Shown here piece by piece: positions 3,021-31,108 of a stretch of DNA of 64,000 bases; position 1 is the stretch's first letter, and every line of letters starts with the position of its first letter. Position numbers and translations under genes: made by a program. The notes under the pieces were generated by a model that made no database searches, was not told the origin of the DNA, and saw nothing but the letters and a program-made list of their open reading frames with translations. The stretch comes from an uncultured Clostridia bacterium (GTDB taxonomy: Bacteria > Bacillota > Clostridia > Saccharofermentanales > Saccharofermentanaceae), in NCBI GenBank assembly GCA_947303255.1, contig CAMYXL010000006.1:1-64000 (forward strand), given 5' to 3'.

Positions 3021-3728
3021 ATGCTGTTTTATCTTATACGTGCGACTCGTGACCCGAAAGAGATTTTGTACATCCTCGTGATGTACATTCTCGCGCTGTC
3101 CGTAGCGTTTGCGTGTCATGAGTTTGCACATGCCTTTGCGGCATTGAAACTTGGTGACGATACTGCCAAACACATGGGTCGTGTAACTTTAAATCCTTTG
3201 GCACATATCGATCTGAAGGCATTGATCCCTTTGTTGCTCATGGGATTCGGTTGGGGTAAACCTGTACCGGTCGATCCTTCAAGACTTACTAAGTTAAAAA
3301 GCAGATCGTTATCTATTATCCTTGTTTCAATAGCAGGTGTAACAGCCAATTTCATATTGGCAATTATTGCCGGAATACTTTATGTTTTGGCGTATGAGCT
3401 TATCCCTCAGGACTTCCAGTTCTTACCGATGATAAACAGTTTTTTGGAAATGTGCATAACGCTCAATCTCGGACTTTTGGCATTCAACCTTCTCCCGATC
3501 CCGCCTCTTGACGGATTCAGGGTAATCTATGAGTTGCTTCCGGTAAAGTTAAGATATACGGGATTCTTCAAATGGTATGCAACATATGCTCCTATGATCC
3601 TTTTCGGATTGATCGTTATCGGAGCTATGTCCAATATATCGTTTTTCTCAGGAATTATTACTATTATCGAGTGGCCGTTCCAGAAAGTCGTATTTTGGAT
3701 AATGGAACTTGTAGCCAAACTATTTTAA
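3021..3728 (+). CDS. Site-2 protease family (M50) membrane metalloprotease
   Basis: Predicted integral membrane zinc protease of 235 residues. The HExxH motif is HEFAH at residues 33-37 inside the first hydrophobic region, and the second metal-ligand motif is NLLPIPPLDG near residue 158, with several further membrane segments. This small PDZ-less form belongs to the YwhC/Rv-type branch of family M50 and not to RseP, which is encoded separately at 29777. It stands directly before scpA, an arrangement I recall as common in clostridia, but its substrate is unknown. The start is supported by AGAGGA a few bases upstream. Spacing to ileS (13 bases) and scpA (12 bases) indicates co-transcription. 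Confidence 0.88.
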   Translation: MLFYLIRATRDPKEILYILVMYILALSVAFACHEFAHAFAALKLGDDTAKHMGRVTLNPLAHIDLKALIPLLLMGFGWGKPVPVDPSRLTKLKSRSLSIILVSIAGVTANFILAIIAGILYVLAYELIPQDFQFLPMINSFLEMCITLNLGLLAFNLLPIPPLDGFRVIYELLPVKLRYTGFFKWYATYAPMILFGLIVIGAMSNISFFSGIITIIEWPFQKVVFWIMELVAKLF

Positions 3729-9472: not shown

Positions 9473-11311
9473 TCAGATTGGCTCATCAAACATAGACTCA
9501 TTCGCTTTGTACCATTTTGCAAAATCCTTAAAGACATTATCACCGTATGCTTTCTTAACGGCAGCTGCTGAGTCCTCGCGTGATAAGCAGTCTGAATATC
9601 CCTCCTTTGGCTGGAAATCATTAGCAGCAGTAAGGATCTTTTTATAGCACTCGCTGCCGTATTTGGTCTTGAGATATATCATAAATCTATATCCGTATGT
9701 ATATTCATCCCAACCGTCTTCAAATCCCTGGATAAATAGAGATTCAGCATTGCTTTCATTAATCTCATATTTGATATAACAGTAGTTGTAATGATATTGC
9801 TTTTCATCAGTGTCCATATTATCAACGGCTTTTATGCAGTCGTAAGTAAATGCAGTAGTAAAGCCTTCATTAAGAATGGAACAGAAGTAGTATCCGTTGT
9901 TGCAATTGAGCACATGTAAAAGCTCATGAGGGAGAGCCCAATTACCTCCGTTGTAACCCAATTCATCGTTAAAGTCTATATCACATGGGTTAACAATGAC
10001 GGCTCTGCCGTAAGCGCTTGGTTCACAATTGTCTGCAACAAAGATGGAAAACTTGGAAGTTGGCTTTGGAACATCCTTAAAAGCACCATTAAGATAACAA
10101 TCATCTACCAATCCCCAATCGTCGAGCATATCTAAACTGGCTCCGAATGATTTGGTAAGGAAATCACCTGAATATGAAAGCCCCGTGTTTTTCTCATTTG
10201 CTTTGAATATGTCATCGATTACTTTTGCCGAATCTCCTCTTACAGGGATACCCTTGTCGACAAATACATACGAATACTCAGTTATAAAGTAGCATGGCTC
10301 AGTAGTAGTAACCCATGTATTTTTGTTACCATCGAGTTCAAGCATCTTTACTGAACAAGTCGGCTCGGGCGTTGTTGTTGCAACTGTTGGAACCGGAGTA
10401 GTCGTATTGGTTGATGTAGGGTTTGCAGTTGTTGGAGTAGTAGTATCAACTGGCTTCTTAGGATCTTTTCGTCCGATCGGTGTGAAAGATCCCTTAGGGA
10501 TACCATACGTATCACAGATTTTTTGAAATTCAGGAGCTGAAGCAAATCCTGCAAAAACCTGTTCTCTTGTAACACCTTTCTTTAGTTCACTGAGCCAGAA
10601 AGCTTTGCCGCCTTCTTCGGAAGCTCTGCCCATGAAAAGCTTATATAAGGACTCAACATAATCCTCATTTGATAAATACAATGAGATATATTCATCACTG
10701 AAGATAAAGAAAGAAGCACAGTCAACGCCTGTTATCTTACCGTCGAGAAGATTCTGGACCCAGTACTGCTGGCCGCCTTTGTCGCCCTTTCTGTTGAAAC
10801 AGCATTCATAGAACCTGTCTACGAATATGTTTACTTTCTGAAGTTTGTCAAAGTTGTAGGAAGAAGAGTAGTAACCAGGAGTGATTCCGTTTTGGATGCA
10901 CAGTTCATAAAACTCTTCGGAATTTGCAAAGCCGTCAAAGACTCCGTTTCGGCCAAGCGTGCTTATATTCTTTTTCCAGAATTCGTATCCTTCCGTATCC
11001 GCCTTACGCCCCATGAAAAGAGTGTAGAGGTCATTGATATAAACTTCATCGGAAGTGTTCTTGGATTGGTATTCCTCGCTGGTGATAAAAAGAAGGGCAG
11101 TACCTGTTCCGGTAAGCTTGCCGTCATTTAATTGTCCGAGCCAGAAATTGAAACCGTCTTCGTCAGCATCACGTCCAAGTGCGATCTGATAACATCTGTT
11201 AACGAAGTTCTTTGCACCATCATCTTTTTCGTCTGCTCTGACAATTCCCGCAAGCGGCATGAATACCATAAACAGTGCCAGGAGCAGAGCTGTAAATTTG
11301 GATTTCATCAT
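9473..11311 (-). CDS. Secreted DUF4214-repeat protein with HELLH metalloprotease-like domain
   Basis: Predicted exported protein of about 612 residues. The track start (11350) adds 13 residues. The ATG at 11311 follows AAAGG eight bases upstream and opens directly with a signal peptide (MMKSKFTALLLALF, cleavage near VRA-DE). Four DUF4214-type units follow (GRDADEDGFNFWL, GRKADTEGYEFW, NRKGDKGGQQYW, GRASEEGGKAFW), then a Thr/Pro linker near residues 295-325. The C-terminal domain carries HELLH at about residue 462, with NEGF about 15 residues later as a likely third zinc ligand, so a gluzincin-type peptidase is inferred. A promoter candidate, TTGCCT-18-TAAAAT, reads toward it (11371-11400, minus strand). 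Substrate unknown; wall or matrix proteins are possible. Confidence 0.82.
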   Translation of the reverse strand: MMKSKFTALLLALFMVFMPLAGIVRADEKDDGAKNFVNRCYQIALGRDADEDGFNFWLGQLNDGKLTGTGTALLFITSEEYQSKNTSDEVYINDLYTLFMGRKADTEGYEFWKKNISTLGRNGVFDGFANSEEFYELCIQNGITPGYYSSSYNFDKLQKVNIFVDRFYECCFNRKGDKGGQQYWVQNLLDGKITGVDCASFFIFSDEYISLYLSNEDYVESLYKLFMGRASEEGGKAFWLSELKKGVTREQVFAGFASAPEFQKICDTYGIPKGSFTPIGRKDPKKPVDTTTPTTANPTSTNTTTPVPTVATTTPEPTCSVKMLELDGNKNTWVTTTEPCYFITEYSYVFVDKGIPVRGDSAKVIDDIFKANEKNTGLSYSGDFLTKSFGASLDMLDDWGLVDDCYLNGAFKDVPKPTSKFSIFVADNCEPSAYGRAVIVNPCDIDFNDELGYNGGNWALPHELLHVLNCNNGYYFCSILNEGFTTAFTYDCIKAVDNMDTDEKQYHYNYCYIKYEINESNAESLFIQGFEDGWDEYTYGYRFMIYLKTKYGSECYKKILTAANDFQPKEGYSDCLSREDSAAAVKKAYGDNVFKDFAKWYKANESMFDEPI

Positions 11312-11370
11312 GGATATACCTTTTTCTTTCAGAATGACTTTTATAGTCAAAGGCCTGTGTGTTCTCTAAG

Positions 11371-18570: not shown

Positions 18571-18596
18571 TGAACCTGAGCAAACTTCCTTACGTC
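18571..18596 (+). promoter_or_regulatory. ECF-type promoter candidate (TGAACC-N16-CGTC)
   Basis: TGAACC is followed after 16 bases by CGTC, matching the general shape of promoters used by ECF sigma factors (an AAC-containing -35 and a CGT-type -10). It lies about 36 bases ahead of the small ORF that overlaps the ECF sigma gene, so self-regulation is inferred. An overlapping TATAAG (18604) could act with the main sigma factor instead. Confidence 0.5.
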
Positions 18597-18631
18597 TATT
18601 GGTTATAAGACGCTGATAAGGAGGTCAAGAT

Positions 18632-18781
18632 GTGTTGGAAAGAATCAAGTTCCTGACGAGGTTTTTCAAAGCGGTAGCAGAGGACATGGAATTGCCTGAC
18701 GAGAATAAAACAGGTTGTAACAAAATCGAAGAAAGTGAGAAAATAGAAAATGATGAAGCAGGAGACAATAACAATGAGTGA
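18632..18781 (+). CDS. Small 49-residue protein overlapping the ECF sigma gene
   Basis: Not in the ORF track because it starts with GTG. The sequence AAGGAGG lies seven bases before GTG at 18632, and the frame runs 49 codons to a TGA that overlaps the sigma factor start by 8 bases (ATGAGTGA). The product begins with a basic amphipathic helix (VLERIKFLTRFFKAVAEDM) and ends in a very acidic, Asn-rich tail. The ATG two bases earlier (18630) gives only eight codons. Tight overlap with the sigma gene suggests translational coupling and a role with it; a small anti-sigma or adaptor is only a guess. The match to no known family could be checked by search. Confidence 0.6.
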   Translation: MLERIKFLTRFFKAVAEDMELPDENKTGCNKIEESEKIENDEAGDNNNE

Positions 18782-21071
18782 CGATAAGATCTTTGCAGAG
18801 TATGCACAGCTGGTAAGAAGGATCAAGAGCGGGGACGAGGGCGCCTGCGATGAGATCTACAATAAATCCAAGCGACTTGTATATGCAACGTGCTATGGAA
18901 TCTTAAATAACAACGAAGATGCACAGGACGCCATGCAGGAAACCTACATGACAGTCTTTACAAAGATAGATGAGCTTAGTGACGAGAGTAAGTTTCTCGG
19001 ATGGCTTAAAAGAGTTGCCGCTTCCAAATCTCTTGATATGTACCGCAAAAAGCGCGGTGATATCTCCTATGATGAAATTCCGGTAACAGAAGGAGACGAT
19101 GATCTTGAATCGCTTCCTGATGCCTATATCATGGAAAAGACTAAGAGGGATATATTGAATCAGATCATAAGAAGGGAACTTTCCGATGTACAATATCAGA
19201 CCATCCTTCTTTATTACTACGATGAGTTGCCGATCGAGACTATCGCCAAACTCATGAATTGTCCTGAAGGAACAGTCAAGACCAGACTTAAGTCTTCCAG
19301 GATCAAGATCAAGGCAGCAATTGAAGAGTACGAGGATAAGAATAAGGATTACTTCGCAGCATTTACCGGGGTACCGTTCCTTGCTAAGTTCTTCATGGAG
19401 ATCGAGAGAAATCTTAATGTTCCGCAGGTTAAGCTCACAGCTCGCAGACCTTCCTCAGGTAAAAGACCATATGAAAATACCAAGGTCGCTCGTAAGGCAG
19501 TTACAAGAGGAGCAAGGAAAACGGCAGGCAAGACTTTCATTTCGACCATCGGAGGCAAGATCGCAGTCGGTGCTGCTGCTATCGTCGTACTTGCTACAGG
19601 TACCATTGTTGTTAAGACAATTATCGATAAGATGGATGAACCCGGATCAAATCGTCATTCTGAGAAGGAAGCCGATGATGAAGAAGTATATGAGAATGAA
19701 GAGACAGAAGAGATTACTGAGACTTCTGAGCCTTCGGAAGAAACAGAGCCGACAGTCGTTATCTATGACGAGCCTGTTGAACTTAATACAGATGAAGTTC
19801 CTGAGTATGATCAGCTTACACGTTTGATCGGTCGGTTTGATATACCAAACTACGACTGCAATTCTGTTCCGGATGATTTTATCAATGAATTCATGTTCAC
19901 GGATGGCGGGATCATGATCGATCTTTCCACATACTTCGATGATTACAGTTCCGATAAAGGTGTTTCAGATCCGTTGGGACTTTTCGATCCGATTTACTGT
20001 TCAAAGGTAAATTATGACTACCTGGTATGGACAGAGGAGAATATCTTAAATATCTCTTCGGAGGATATCGAGCGAATCAACGTTTTCGAAGAAGTGCCTT
20101 CTGAATACGGAGCTGGATGGGGACACTACCTTAATTCCGACGGTTATATCTATATGGCCAAAGGCGAGGCCGGAGACAGTGTTTCCGAAGAAATCATTAA
20201 GATCACCTTCGATGGAGAGTACTACTATGTGATCAGCAATGTTTATGACATGATGTTTACGGCTAGCGATCCTAACTATGATCCAATGGAAGACGGTACT
20301 AAATATCTTAACGTGATGCTTCTTAAGGAGATCGACGGCAAGTATTACTGGTCTTTCATCAGCCGAAGCGTTACAACATTGGATGCTTCTGATAATACTT
20401 CTGAGACAGAGCAGGTATCTGCTGAGACTGTTGATCTTACAGGTGATGTAGACTTTAGAACACTTGAGGATAACGGCTGGAAAGCTGCTTATCTTGAAAG
20501 GATCGATTCACTTACCAAGGATGACTTTGGTAACGGTCAGATGGGGATCTCAGATGATTACACCATGGGTTATGATCTCGTATTCATCAATGACGATCAG
20601 ATCCCTGAACTGGTCTGCTGTCTTAACGAAGACATGGGAACATCATGGATCAATATCTACACATATGCCAATGATGAGACTATCAAGCTCGGAAACAGCA
20701 TGTACAGATATAAGATAGATATCACTTACGTTCCTGCAGGAAACATGATCGGTGCAGGTGGTGGTATCTCCGATGCAGGTGCTGCAGTCTCTTCCATGTA
20801 CTGGATGATGAGTGATGACTGCACCATCCTTGAAACCATAGAATACTGCTCATACGCATATGACCGCACTAAGTACAGCAATGTACAGGAAGCGATCGAA
20901 GCAGGTGAATACGAAGAAGGAGTCTGGTACAATTATATCTATGATCCTGAAACCGATTCTCTTATTGAGATCTCGGAGGAAGAGAATAGCAGGATCGATG
21001 AGGAACTTCGAAATCAGAAGAGTCTTTATACGACCAAAACGCTGGATCAGTTCAAGGAAATGATAGGCTGA
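18774..21071 (+). CDS. ECF sigma factor fused to a membrane segment and large outside domain
   Basis: A 765-residue protein. Residues about 15-80 are sigma region 2 (EDAQDAMQETYMTVF) and about 125-180 region 4 (LPIETIAKLMNCPEGTVKTRL), typical of ECF sigma factors. After a basic linker, one membrane segment follows at about 260-282 (AVGAAAIVVLATGTIVV). Then comes an acidic Glu/Thr linker and a roughly 430-residue outside domain, with a VCBS-like segment (YDLVFINDDQIPELVC) seen in other clostridial surface proteins. The architecture joins sigma factor and sensor in one chain, so release by proteolysis or direct signalling is inferred. The start at 18774 has GGAG nine bases upstream and overlaps the preceding small ORF; the track start at 18750 has a weaker site. 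Confidence 0.87.
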   Translation: MSDDKIFAEYAQLVRRIKSGDEGACDEIYNKSKRLVYATCYGILNNNEDAQDAMQETYMTVFTKIDELSDESKFLGWLKRVAASKSLDMYRKKRGDISYDEIPVTEGDDDLESLPDAYIMEKTKRDILNQIIRRELSDVQYQTILLYYYDELPIETIAKLMNCPEGTVKTRLKSSRIKIKAAIEEYEDKNKDYFAAFTGVPFLAKFFMEIERNLNVPQVKLTARRPSSGKRPYENTKVARKAVTRGARKTAGKTFISTIGGKIAVGAAAIVVLATGTIVVKTIIDKMDEPGSNRHSEKEADDEEVYENEETEEITETSEPSEETEPTVVIYDEPVELNTDEVPEYDQLTRLIGRFDIPNYDCNSVPDDFINEFMFTDGGIMIDLSTYFDDYSSDKGVSDPLGLFDPIYCSKVNYDYLVWTEENILNISSEDIERINVFEEVPSEYGAGWGHYLNSDGYIYMAKGEAGDSVSEEIIKITFDGEYYYVISNVYDMMFTASDPNYDPMEDGTKYLNVMLLKEIDGKYYWSFISRSVTTLDASDNTSETEQVSAETVDLTGDVDFRTLEDNGWKAAYLERIDSLTKDDFGNGQMGISDDYTMGYDLVFINDDQIPELVCCLNEDMGTSWINIYTYANDETIKLGNSMYRYKIDITYVPAGNMIGAGGGISDAGAAVSSMYWMMSDDCTILETIEYCSYAYDRTKYSNVQEAIEAGEYEEGVWYNYIYDPETDSLIEISEEENSRIDEELRNQKSLYTTKTLDQFKEMIG

Positions 21072-23192: not shown

Positions 23193-25427
23193 ATGAAAAA
23201 GATAGTGGCTTTGTTGCTTTCTGTCACTTTCCTTTTTAGTCTTGCAGCATGCAAAAAGACTACTGAGGAAACGACAGAATCTACCACTGAAGTTGTTGAT
23301 CCGCAGGCACCAGGTTTCCGTGAGACAACGGAACTTTTTGACGGTGCATATGCATTGGATTACACATTTGAAGATCCTGAGAATTTCCCGTGGACAACAT
23401 ATACTGAAGGCGGTGCTCTGACCTTGGTATGTGAAGACGGAAAGATGATCGCCAAGATAGAGAATCCTGGTGTAAAGAAGCACTCTTGTCAAGTCTATCA
23501 TGACGGTTTCCAGATCTATCAGAATGCAGAATATCAGGTTGATTTTGACATTTGGGGAGATGTGGAAAGAGACTTTGAATGGCGTATCCAGATAAACGGC
23601 AGTGACTATCATGCATACTATGTTGAGGAAGCAGCCCACATGGGAACAGAACCAACACATATTACTGCTGTTTTTACAATGTATGAGCCAAGTGATCCTG
23701 CACCTCGTTTTGCTTTCAACCTCGGAGCAGCAGGCGACGGAGCTCATAACGTATACATCGATAATCTTACAATGCAGGTACTTAACTGTTCAAATGCAGT
23801 TGCTATCGAAGGTCCTGAGCCACCGAATCCGGTTGCGCTTAATCAGGTAGGTTATCGTCCTAATGATCCTAAGACAGTTTTCATTGCATCTCCGTCTGAT
23901 ACTTCATTTGATATCGTAAAAGCTGATTCGGGTGAGGTTGTATATACAGGTACTTTGTCTGATCCTTATATGTGCCGTTTTGCTAGCTACAAAGTTGCAG
24001 AAGGTAACTTTAGCGACTTTAAGGAGCCTGGTACATACATCGTAAAGACTGCTAACAGCGGTGAATCATATTCGTTTACCATCGCAGATAATGTTTACGA
24101 TGATGCATTGCGTGCTTCTATCCTGATGATCTATACACAGCGTTGCGGTTGTGAAGTAACGGCTGATATCGGAGAAGAATATAAGGATTTCGCTCATCCT
24201 GCATGTCATACAGATATAGCAACTGTTTATGGAACTGATAAGAAGATCGATGTAACAGGCGGTTGGCATGATGCAGGAGACTATGGTCGTTATGTAGTTC
24301 CTGGAGCTAAGACTATTGCAGATCTTCTTATGACATATACAGATACAGGTTTTGATGCTGATGATCTCGGAATTCCTGAAAGCGGTAATGAGATCCCTGA
24401 TCTTCTTGATGAGGCACGCTATGAACTCGAGTGGATGTTCAAGATGCAGGATGAAAACGGCGGAGTATATCACAAGGTAACCTGTGCTAATTTCCCTGAT
24501 ACAGTAATGCCTCAGGATGAGACAGCAGAGCTTCTTGTTATGCCTGTATCAACAACTGCTACAGGTGACTTTGCAGCTGTTATGGCCCGTGCATCAGTTG
24601 TTTACGCTCCGTTTGATGAGGAGTTCTCGCTTAAGTGTCTTGAAGCTTCCAAGAAAGCATATGACTATATGCTGAGCAATGCAGCTTCAGATACGACCGG
24701 ATATCTTAATCCAACTGATGTTGCAACAGGTGAGTATTCTGATGCAGTTAACCAGGATGAATTCTTCTGGGCTGCTATCGAGTTGTTCGTTGCTACAGGT
24801 GAGCAGTCTTATCTTGATAAAGCCAAGGAGCTTTATAACAACAACATGGAACTCGGATTAGGTTGGATCGAGATGGGTCTTTACGGAATCCACACATATC
24901 TTCTTTCCGATGCTTCAGCTCAGGATACCGCTTTTACCAAGGAACTTAAGGACCGCATCATTGAAGAGATGGATAAATCTGTAATGCTTGCCAACCGTGA
25001 GGGCTACTTTAACAAGATGTCCAGTTTCCCATGGGGAAGTAATCTTACTATCAGTAATAACGGAATACTTTATAACCTCGGTTATTTGTTGACCGGTAAC
25101 GAAGAATACAAAGAACTTATGTATTACCAGGTTGACTATATCATGGGTATGAATGCCTGCGGCTACAGCTTCCTTACCGGATTTGGCGAGCACGCGGCTC
25201 AGTTCCCGCACCACAGACCATCACAGTTTAACGGTCATGCGGTACCTGGTATGGTCGTAGGCGGTCCGAACGGAGATCCTGCTGATCCGTATGCAATGAG
25301 TGTTCTTTACGATACACCGGCTGCCCTTTGTTACGTGGACAATGACACTGCTTATTCGATAAACGAGGTAGCAATCTATTGGAACTCTCCGTTTATCTAT
25401 ATCCTGGCCGCCAAAGTCCAGTCTTGA
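23193..25427 (+). CDS. Lipoprotein GH9 endoglucanase with CBM and Ig-like domain
   Basis: Secreted cellulase of 744 residues. The signal peptide ends in the lipobox SLAAC (Cys20), so it is anchored to the membrane as a lipoprotein. After a Thr/Glu linker a carbohydrate-binding module of CBM4/9 type spans about 40-205 (EYQVDFDIWGDVERDF). The CelD_N Ig-like domain (NPVALNQVGYRPNDPK) covers about 208-300, and the GH9 catalytic domain about 305-740. Catalytic aspartates are in GGWHDAGDYGRY near 356 and the catalytic glutamate in NEVAIYWNSP near 724; the HHRPS substrate-binding histidine is present. It cuts beta-1,4-glucans. A single-gene unit with its own promoter, GGAGGGG site and terminator, it points to a plant-fibre niche. 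Confidence 0.95.
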   Translation: MKKIVALLLSVTFLFSLAACKKTTEETTESTTEVVDPQAPGFRETTELFDGAYALDYTFEDPENFPWTTYTEGGALTLVCEDGKMIAKIENPGVKKHSCQVYHDGFQIYQNAEYQVDFDIWGDVERDFEWRIQINGSDYHAYYVEEAAHMGTEPTHITAVFTMYEPSDPAPRFAFNLGAAGDGAHNVYIDNLTMQVLNCSNAVAIEGPEPPNPVALNQVGYRPNDPKTVFIASPSDTSFDIVKADSGEVVYTGTLSDPYMCRFASYKVAEGNFSDFKEPGTYIVKTANSGESYSFTIADNVYDDALRASILMIYTQRCGCEVTADIGEEYKDFAHPACHTDIATVYGTDKKIDVTGGWHDAGDYGRYVVPGAKTIADLLMTYTDTGFDADDLGIPESGNEIPDLLDEARYELEWMFKMQDENGGVYHKVTCANFPDTVMPQDETAELLVMPVSTTATGDFAAVMARASVVYAPFDEEFSLKCLEASKKAYDYMLSNAASDTTGYLNPTDVATGEYSDAVNQDEFFWAAIELFVATGEQSYLDKAKELYNNNMELGLGWIEMGLYGIHTYLLSDASAQDTAFTKELKDRIIEEMDKSVMLANREGYFNKMSSFPWGSNLTISNNGILYNLGYLLTGNEEYKELMYYQVDYIMGMNACGYSFLTGFGEHAAQFPHHRPSQFNGHAVPGMVVGGPNGDPADPYAMSVLYDTPAALCYVDNDTAYSINEVAIYWNSPFIYILAAKVQS

Positions 25428-29776: not shown

Positions 29777-31108
29777 ATGTCAGTCGTTATCAGCATAATT
29801 ACTGTATTACTTGTGCTTGGAATCTTGTCTGCAGCTCATGAGTTGGGACATTTTTTTGTTGCCAGATTAATGAAGGTTAAGGCCTATGAAGTGTCTATCT
29901 TTGTAGGACCTGCGCTCTTTAAATGGAGAAAAAAAGATGTGGACTATTCCATAAGATGCATTCCTATCGGAGCATATGTAAGGTTTAGCGAAGTAGATAA
30001 CGAGGGCAAGCCTATCGAGAGTGATGATCCGACATTGCTTTTGAATCAGCCACGTTGGAAAAGACTTATCATTGCTCTTGCAGGACCTTTTGTAAACCTT
30101 ATTTTGGGTATCCTCATCTTTATCGTGTTCTTCTGTGCTACCGGATACACATCTTTGGATCTTGATTCTACAGAACCGGGAACACAGCTTTATGAGCAGC
30201 ACTACGAAGTAGGCGATACTATCGTTGCTCTTAACGGAAAAAGAGTATATACCTATGATGAGCTTTACATTGCTTTCAACTTCATCAATGATGTTGATCC
30301 TGTAGAACTTACTATTAAGTCCAAAGAAACAGGTGAGAAGTACAACATTACTTTGACTCCTGAGATCAAGAGACAGACTATGCTCGGTATTAACAGATTG
30401 AAAGATCTGGATGCTGAAACCGGAGGATGGGTTATAGCTGCCAATTGGAACGAAGAATCTGATCTTCTTAAGGAAGGCGATATTCTCGTTACTATCGACG
30501 GCAAACCGATGGATGAGAATATATCCGAGTACGTATCTTCCAAATCTGAAGATGACACTGTTGTTATCGAGTATATAAGAAACGGCCAGAAGCAGACAGG
30601 TGAAGTTCCTTTATTTGCGTACGATCATACCAATTACAGAGGTATTATCTTGCAGGAACATAGTGTCAGAAGTGTTGGTGAGTTCTTCGGTGCAGTTGGA
30701 AATGCAGTTAAGATGCCTGTTTCCATCTTAAGATTGACAGGACTTGTTATCTCTAACGCCATTGGCGGTAAAGTTGAGATATACAATGTTATATCAGGAC
30801 CTGTAGGTGTTGTTAATGTAGTAGACACCGTGGTCGCAAATGAGAACGTTAATACCGGTATAAAGGTAAGCACTCTCGTAATGCTTGCAGGAATGATCTC
30901 CGTTGCACTTACGATCTCCAACATGCTTCCTTTGCCTGGTCTTGACGGTGCTCAGGTCATTATACTTGTTGTAGAAATGGTCATTGGCAGAAAACTGCCG
31001 AAGAAAGCCGAGAATGCAATCACGGTTATCGGTTTCTTTGTCCTTCTGGGACTGGTTTTGTTGGCGTTTGCATCAGATATAGCAAAGATCGTATTTGAGG
31101 GTTGGTAA
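29777..31108 (+). CDS. rseP: RIP metalloprotease RseP
   Basis: Membrane site-2 protease of 443 residues that cuts anti-sigma factors and signal-peptide remnants within the membrane. The zinc motif HELGH is at residues 21-25; one PDZ-type region lies about 190-285 (EEGDILVTIDGKPM); the second catalytic motif NMLPLPGLDG is near 382, and the last helices follow. It sits in the conserved order uppS-cdsA-dxr-rseP-ispG-polC. It could act on the membrane-tethered sigma factor at 18774, but this is only inference. Confidence 0.95.
   Translation: MSVVISIITVLLVLGILSAAHELGHFFVARLMKVKAYEVSIFVGPALFKWRKKDVDYSIRCIPIGAYVRFSEVDNEGKPIESDDPTLLLNQPRWKRLIIALAGPFVNLILGILIFIVFFCATGYTSLDLDSTEPGTQLYEQHYEVGDTIVALNGKRVYTYDELYIAFNFINDVDPVELTIKSKETGEKYNITLTPEIKRQTMLGINRLKDLDAETGGWVIAANWNEESDLLKEGDILVTIDGKPMDENISEYVSSKSEDDTVVIEYIRNGQKQTGEVPLFAYDHTNYRGIILQEHSVRSVGEFFGAVGNAVKMPVSILRLTGLVISNAIGGKVEIYNVISGPVGVVNVVDTVVANENVNTGIKVSTLVMLAGMISVALTISNMLPLPGLDGAQVIILVVEMVIGRKLPKKAENAITVIGFFVLLGLVLLAFASDIAKIVFEGW

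Follow-up and report, generated by a model that had tools for sequence, protein, structure and literature searches.

In the 64,000-nucleotide stretch of DNA analyzed here (hereafter the window; contig CAMYXL010000006.1 of an uncultured Clostridia bacterium of the Saccharofermentanaceae, assembly GCA_947303255.1), we identified an ECF sigma factor gene at 18774-21071 (+), a single uninterrupted frame of 765 codons that joins the sigma domains to a membrane helix and a large outer part. The gene is overlapped at its start by a small open reading frame (ORF), itself preceded by a putative promoter box (Table 1). As read from the sequences, a MATE-type transporter gene lies upstream of this unit and rpsB downstream; between tsf and pyrH, at 23193-25427, the window also encodes a GH9 cellulase with CelD_N and CBM_4_9 domains and a lipoprotein-like signal. 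An earlier note on this DNA had placed sigma regions 2 and 4, a single membrane helix and an outer part of about 430 residues in one chain, and this layout and its coordinates were correct. That note omitted the small ORF from its list and overlooked a conserved helix motif between region 4 and the membrane helix.

Table 1. Features of the small ORF-sigma factor unit (positions in the window; residues in the sigma chain)
Feature	Position	Strand	Evidence
ECF-type promoter box, TGAACCT-N15-CGTCTA	18571..18598	+	Same box in clade; upstream of small ORF
Shine-Dalgarno AAGGAGG of small ORF	18618..18624	+	6/6 match to AGGAGG
Small ORF, 48 aa from TTG, LERIKFLTRFFKAVAEDMELPDENK plus charged tail, bearing the juxtamembrane motif of the sigma factor	18635..18781	+	Motif profile, pN/pS
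Membrane-tethered ECF sigma factor, 765 aa	18774..21071	+	ORF call; ATG overlaps small-ORF stop (ATGAGTGA)
Sigma region 2 (residues 29-94)	18858..19055	+	PF04542 Sigma70_r2, 1.4e-12
Sigma region 4 (residues 135-176)	19176..19301	+	PF08281 Sigma70_r4_2, 4.3e-08
Juxtamembrane motif VPFLAKFFMEIERNLNVPQV, proposed built-in anti-sigma helix	19371..19430	+	Family conservation; AF2 helix, pLDDT 91
Single transmembrane helix IAVGAAAIVVLATGTIVVK	19560..19616	+	KD 2.17, charge asymmetry, AF2 helix
Acidic Thr/Ser/Glu-rich outer linker	19635..19769	+	Sequence
Outer module 1 (about residues 341-545 of 773), no known family	19770..20384	+	Shared alone with L064, L055, L062; AF2 mostly 57-95 per block
Outer module 2 (about residues 566-773 of 773), 'INDDxIPEL...IYTY' type, no known family	20445..21068	+	Shared alone with L059, L057, L067; AF2

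Both sigma domains exceeded the Pfam cut-offs, and the protein passed the NCBIfam sigma70-ECF model TIGR02937 (89.2 bits, cut-off 42.9); with regions 2 and 4 alone and this profile passed, it belongs to the ECF (group 4) sigma factors. Among the named NCBIfam equivalogs listed, none was passed, and the closest solved chain by sequence is Bacillus SigW. An alternative in-frame ATG at 18750 would give a protein of 773 residues; we prefer the start at 18774 because its ribosome-binding site is the better one (5/6 bases, against 3/6 at 18750).

The sole hydrophobic segment in the chain spans 19 residues (KD 2.17). The net charge is +6 on the flank next to the sigma domains and -8 on the opposite one, indicating that the sigma domains are inside and the remainder of the protein outside, and AlphaFold2 (AF2) places a helix at residues 272-295 (773-residue numbering), with low confidence. 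The topology check thus upheld the membrane helix of the earlier note. Across the family, these membrane helices are rich in small residues (39% Ala + Gly and 7% Leu, compared with 17% and 17% in the other membrane helices of the window). The acidic linker that follows on the outer side may be a site-1 cleavage region. The outer part consists of two modules, each found separately in relatives, and was modeled by AF2 with a mean pLDDT of 80. The search for its matches that the earlier note had proposed found none: there was no Pfam match above the cut-off and no match among PDB sequences, and the fold search returned no solved fold, the best hit (E 1.1e-03, TM 0.16) not being meaningful.

The same architecture, for which the earlier note had proposed a search, defines a conserved multi-copy family of about 45 proteins. 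In a search of 59 genus genomes, 54 matched the protein, many of them in the sigma part only, and the order of parts is shared by roughly 45 homologs of one genus and, in addition, by relatives labeled Lachnospiraceae. Six such fused sigma factors are encoded in the source genome. A hydrophobic segment of KD at least 1.78 follows the sigma domains in every fused relative whose cytoplasmic part is covered, and the inner side is positive and the outer side less positive in 38 of the 45 members checked. The relatives are rumen and gut bacteria labeled Saccharofermentans, Mageeibacillus UBA, Clostridiales, and some Lachnospiraceae and Acetatifactor. Phylum-wide, a strict profile of the sigma tail plus motif matched 1 of 399 genomes, the source genome itself; a broader profile applied class-wide matched 12 of 391, including members of three families outside the order (f7, f11, and f185), and the two f7 genomes that we read have the identical order of parts. 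On plasmids and phages, the matches were confined to the sigma domains. One of the plasmid proteins (L224, 2486-3850, Paraclostridium), a 454-residue sigma-70 family protein with a long C-terminal extension, is encoded beside a class B sortase gene; on reading, the motif was not clearly seen in it.

The outer part is freely swapped across the family. Among 41 members, Pfam identified DUF6273 (4), RHS repeat (2), PliI (2, weak), lectin C, lipocalin, DUF5640, and other domains, and in a set of three tandem paralogs (G030), which are 73-74% identical up to residue ~305, one has an unrelated outer part beyond that point. The outer domains of the family also occur on lipoproteins and zinc-ribbon proteins. 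In the source genome, a fused sigma factor with an RHS-like outer part (L035, 3157-5816) has, immediately after it, a lipoprotein gene whose product bears a related outer domain (33% identity over 233 aa, 2e-29). Elsewhere, a gene (L073, 4983-6536; also L043) is laid out like a fused sigma factor, with its start, linker, membrane helix, and outer domain, but has no sigma domains; L073, which is preceded by the same promoter box as its intact neighbor, is either a decapitated copy or a sigma-less receptor. Another fused sigma frame (L004, 655-2646, minus strand) opens with a zinc ribbon (MYCGYCGTDNEDGMRFCINCGK) before the sigma domains, and zinc-ribbon proteins are encoded beside other family members (L167, L171, L056).

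No other feature of the stretch separating sigma region 4 from the membrane is as strongly conserved as a motif, (V/I)PFLT(K/R)(F/L)F and then ...A..L.(V/I)P, which lies ~20 residues past region 4 in nearly all members; in a minority it has diverged, to sequences such as AIPSIAMVLK or GTLSLGRFF. From the motif to the membrane, the chain is mostly Ala/Gly-rich and variable. In other fused ECF sigma factors, it is the segment between region 4 and the membrane that holds a zinc finger or a FecR domain. No known anti-sigma domain was recognized in this region or elsewhere in the chain: Pfam returned no FecR domain (at E up to 1) and no zinc finger, there is no Cys or His between region 4 and the membrane helix, and there was no Pfam match to the SnoaL_2 or TPR C-terminal extensions that mark ECF41, ECF42, and ECF56. 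In the AF2 model of residues 1-300, the motif forms a helix at 210-220 with a block confidence of 91, preceded by a block at 56 and followed by blocks at 47 or below, the inner linker at 232-277 being below 50. For a solitary helix flanked by disorder, such high confidence is unusual and suggests that the helix docks on the sigma domains, a contact read from these confidence values alone and to be weighed against the tendency of AF2 to model free sigma factors as compact. Furthermore, in Foldseek comparisons, the predicted arrangement of the sigma domains resembles anti-sigma-bound structures (TMt 0.73 for SigW/RsiW and 0.64 for CnrH/CnrY) more than RNAP-bound sigma factors (0.40-0.42). The conserved short helix is thus likely to be the inhibitory element of the fused sigma factor.

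The small ORF (or a 49-residue version from an alternative GTG start at 18632) encodes the same motif. A profile built from the sigma segments, with no small ORF included, ranked it second among the 1632 ORFs of the window, after the sigma factor itself, at 15.9 bits, compared with 8.2 bits for the best of 20x shuffled ORF sets. Conversely, a profile built from six small ORFs and run against the 59 genus genomes gave no significant matches other than small ORFs and the corresponding segment of fused sigma factors. Four of the non-seed small ORFs found in this way lie near sigma genes, three upstream of fused sigma factors (G059, G072, G062) and one directly ahead of a sigma fragment where a contig ends (G028:C129). 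The fifth, in G019, is an orphan (L166, 9274-9627, minus strand; G019:C13:71360; motif VPFLTRFFRKRAEDLSLPA) with no sigma gene nearby, and the two related fused sigma factors of the same genome have no adjacent small ORF, which suggests action in trans. No Pfam family covers the small ORF. The earlier note held that there is no separate anti-sigma gene. This stands for canonical ones, none of which was found adjoining 18774-21071, and has to be amended for the overlapping ORF, which carries a copy of the likely inhibitory helix. A tree built from 64 sigma domains puts every one of the 11 sigma factors preceded by a small ORF into a single 23-member clade (support 97/90), a distribution consistent with an old gain followed by several losses. 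Because it is missing from half of this clade and from all other clades, the small ORF is not essential to the architecture.

The promoter box lies about 35 bases 5' of the small ORF, so that a putative ECF-type promoter is present upstream of the sigma factor's own gene here, as in relatives; the small ORF and the sigma gene are probably co-transcribed. Of 22 clade members, 12 have the box, identically spaced, in the 300 bp upstream; 0.011 were expected per stretch, the consensus having been derived partly from the counted sites. In three further members, the best match is more distant, lying upstream where a longer operon begins or close to that point, and relatives labeled Lachnospiraceae share the box (L068, L070, L072). 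The source genome (2.94 Mb) has no exact match other than the box at 18571, and strict and relaxed pattern searches of that genome gave no sign of a wide regulon, returning the unit's own promoter and matches in coding regions; one relaxed match inside an open frame also lies shortly before a lipoprotein gene and is a weak further candidate promoter. In G030, boxes are found also before genes for two DUF4214 secreted proteins and a lipoprotein, and in G011 and G022, before a membrane protein gene 3' of the sigma gene. At one locus (L037, 6064-18989), three fused sigma factors alternate with secreted proteins of the DUF4214/CAP kind and a lipoprotein; most are preceded by TGAACC-N16-CGTC, and the whole is possibly a self-contained array of sigma factors and targets. 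From their position, we infer that the boxes are used by these sigma factors; with a box upstream of the unit, self-activation is probable, and the unit is probably locally targeted. The window also encodes, at 9473-11350 (minus strand), a secreted protein with DUF4214-like repeats, of the same kind as the putative targets in G030; no strict box was reported near this gene.

Starting from what can be read in the sequence, namely, the tether, its topology, the motif, the small ORF with the same motif, the gene overlap, and the box, we infer a one-protein transmembrane device, a model that we give about an even chance of being right as a whole. The single membrane helix tethers the sigma domains to the membrane. 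The short amphipathic PFLxxFF helix after region 4 would fold back on these domains and hold them inactive, in the manner of an anti-sigma domain, whereas the 48-residue protein, in effect a free copy of the helix, would bind the same sigma surface in trans and buffer or shut off released sigma factor. A signal received by the swappable outer domain would set off two successive cuts, the first in the acidic linker and the second in the Ala/Gly-rich membrane helix, the latter probably made by an M50 protease of the RasP/RseP type. The freed sigma factor could then use the TGAACCT-N15-CGTC box to transcribe its own operon and, in relatives, neighboring cell-surface genes as well. In a more far-reaching form, which we hold more tentatively and would put somewhat below even, the ~20-residue helix represents a new anti-sigma logic that replaces all known anti-sigma folds, acting in cis as the inhibitor of a tethered sigma factor and in trans within a co-translated mini anti-sigma of 48 residues, with a genus free to diversify its sensors by exchanging the outer domains that sit on an unchanging sigma-helix-membrane chassis.

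The occurrence of the motif both in cis and in trans would fit any common docking partner. Thus, the helix and the small protein might bind not the sigma factor but a shared third partner, such as a protease adaptor, a chaperone, an upstream membrane protein or RNA polymerase, with the small protein serving as a decoy or competitor. A membrane or zinc-ribbon protein is indeed encoded beside the small ORF and the sigma factor at four loci (L167, L168, L171, L061), and the orphan in G019 is located away from any sigma gene. However, no such partner gene adjoins the pair in this window, and the helix is confidently predicted in a model of the sigma chain alone, so that we consider this explanation unlikely, if the strongest of the competitors.

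Less probable again is that the sigma factor acts while still tethered, in the way of the single-pass membrane activators of the CadC/ToxR type, with the outer domain working by conformation or clustering and without proteolysis. The long flexible inner linker would give the sigma domains reach. The richness of the membrane helix in small residues, which is expected of the substrates of intramembrane proteases, points the other way. So does the characterized fused ECF sigma factor IutY of Pseudomonas putida (ECF243), which is freed by Prc and RseP (PMC8999054). This precedent and the unusually Ala/Gly-rich membrane segment make proteolytic release plausible here too. The two release candidates put forward in the earlier note are both present in the window as protease genes, an RseP-type protein with M50 and PDZ domains at 29777-31105 (6e-52) and a short M50 protein at 3021-3725 (9.6e-11), and the former is plausible as the releasing enzyme. 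Its nearness to the sigma gene carries no weight and was discarded as evidence, because it sits in what we take to be the usual frr-uppS-cdsA-dxr-rseP-ispG-polC order, expected in any Firmicute.

It is quite improbable that the small ORF is a mere leader that sets translation of the sigma factor by coupling and encodes a functionless peptide. In 8 of 10 loci, the stop of the small ORF and the start of the sigma gene overlap, in several of them as ATGAGTGA (the arrangement found here) or ATGAGTAA, and the two genes are probably translationally coupled. However, across 11 small-ORF loci, the motif codons are saturated at synonymous sites (pS 0.80) with a pN/pS of 0.31, which indicates purifying selection on the small ORF as a protein; the encoded peptide matches a segment of the sigma factor; and the motif persists where the small ORF lies 63-75 bases or a whole gene away from the sigma gene (L061, L135, L171), or is the orphan L166. 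Finally, a frame or assembly error fusing a sigma gene to an unrelated surface-protein gene, which the earlier note had named as a possible refutation of its one-gene reading, has a negligible probability and was dropped, since, even though the source genome is a draft in 116 contigs, the order of parts is intact in the ~45 homologs across many independent assemblies, among them a sister 89% identical over the part present on its contig (L052) and a full-length relative about 50% identical (L051).

The preferred reading thus remains that of a tethered sigma factor held inactive by its own helix and freed by proteolysis. Previously, fused tethered ECF sigma factors were described from a handful of groups with recognizable anti-sigma domains, only one of them being named in a review as experimentally worked out (PMC8999054). 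New here is a multi-copy clostridial family from gut and rumen without a known anti-sigma domain, which has a conserved short helix instead, together with a small protein bearing the same helix; the small ORF that shares the helix of the tether is the most novel part. The literature on membrane-anchored sigma factors and on Saccharofermentans sigma factors, as far as it lies outside most subscription journals and the 2021 ECF reclassification, yielded no description of the family, for which an ECF group number may already exist. The helix of ~20 residues offers a minimal, directly testable element for sigma inhibition, and the family, with many outer domains plugged onto one output, a natural modular sensor chassis. 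Together, the sigma factor and the small protein look like a compact modular route by which outside signals reach the genes.

Several known systems share features with this one. The SigI/RsgI pairs of cellulolytic clostridia, which are degraders of plant fiber, likewise have many paralogs with swappable outer sensing modules; however, SigI falls outside the ECF sigma factors and its anti-sigma RsgI is a protein of its own, whereas the 18774 protein is one chain and passes the ECF model. SigW/RsiW of Bacillus, in which RasP is the general site-2 protease, provides the nearest sigma domain both by sequence and by predicted arrangement, but RsiW is a separate zinc-binding anti-sigma, in contrast to the joining of regulator and sigma factor in one chain here. 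In CnrH/CnrY (PDB 4cxf), the predicted sigma arrangement is again similar, and CnrY is a very short helical anti-sigma peptide that binds the ECF sigma factor CnrH, comparable in kind with the proposed PFLxxFF anti-sigma helix; CnrY, however, is a separate membrane protein.

In layout and presumed mode of action, the family is like the fused tethered groups, but it fails to match the anti-sigma domains that define them. In IutY, an ECF sigma factor and a membrane-bound regulator, in this case a FecR-type anti-sigma, are likewise combined in one chain, and the outer part receives the signal; however, IutY belongs to a siderophore cell-surface signaling system, whereas the 18774 protein comes from a Gram-positive lineage and its family has no recognizable anti-sigma domain, has variable outer domains, and has a small ORF as partner. 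The actinobacterial groups ECF48, ECF52, and ECF53 follow the same order of sigma domains, membrane helix or helices, and outer part, which in SCO4117 is a carbohydrate-binding domain (PMC8999054). They carry a zinc-finger anti-sigma domain before the membrane, the place that in the 18774 protein is taken by the ~20-residue PFLxxFF helix.
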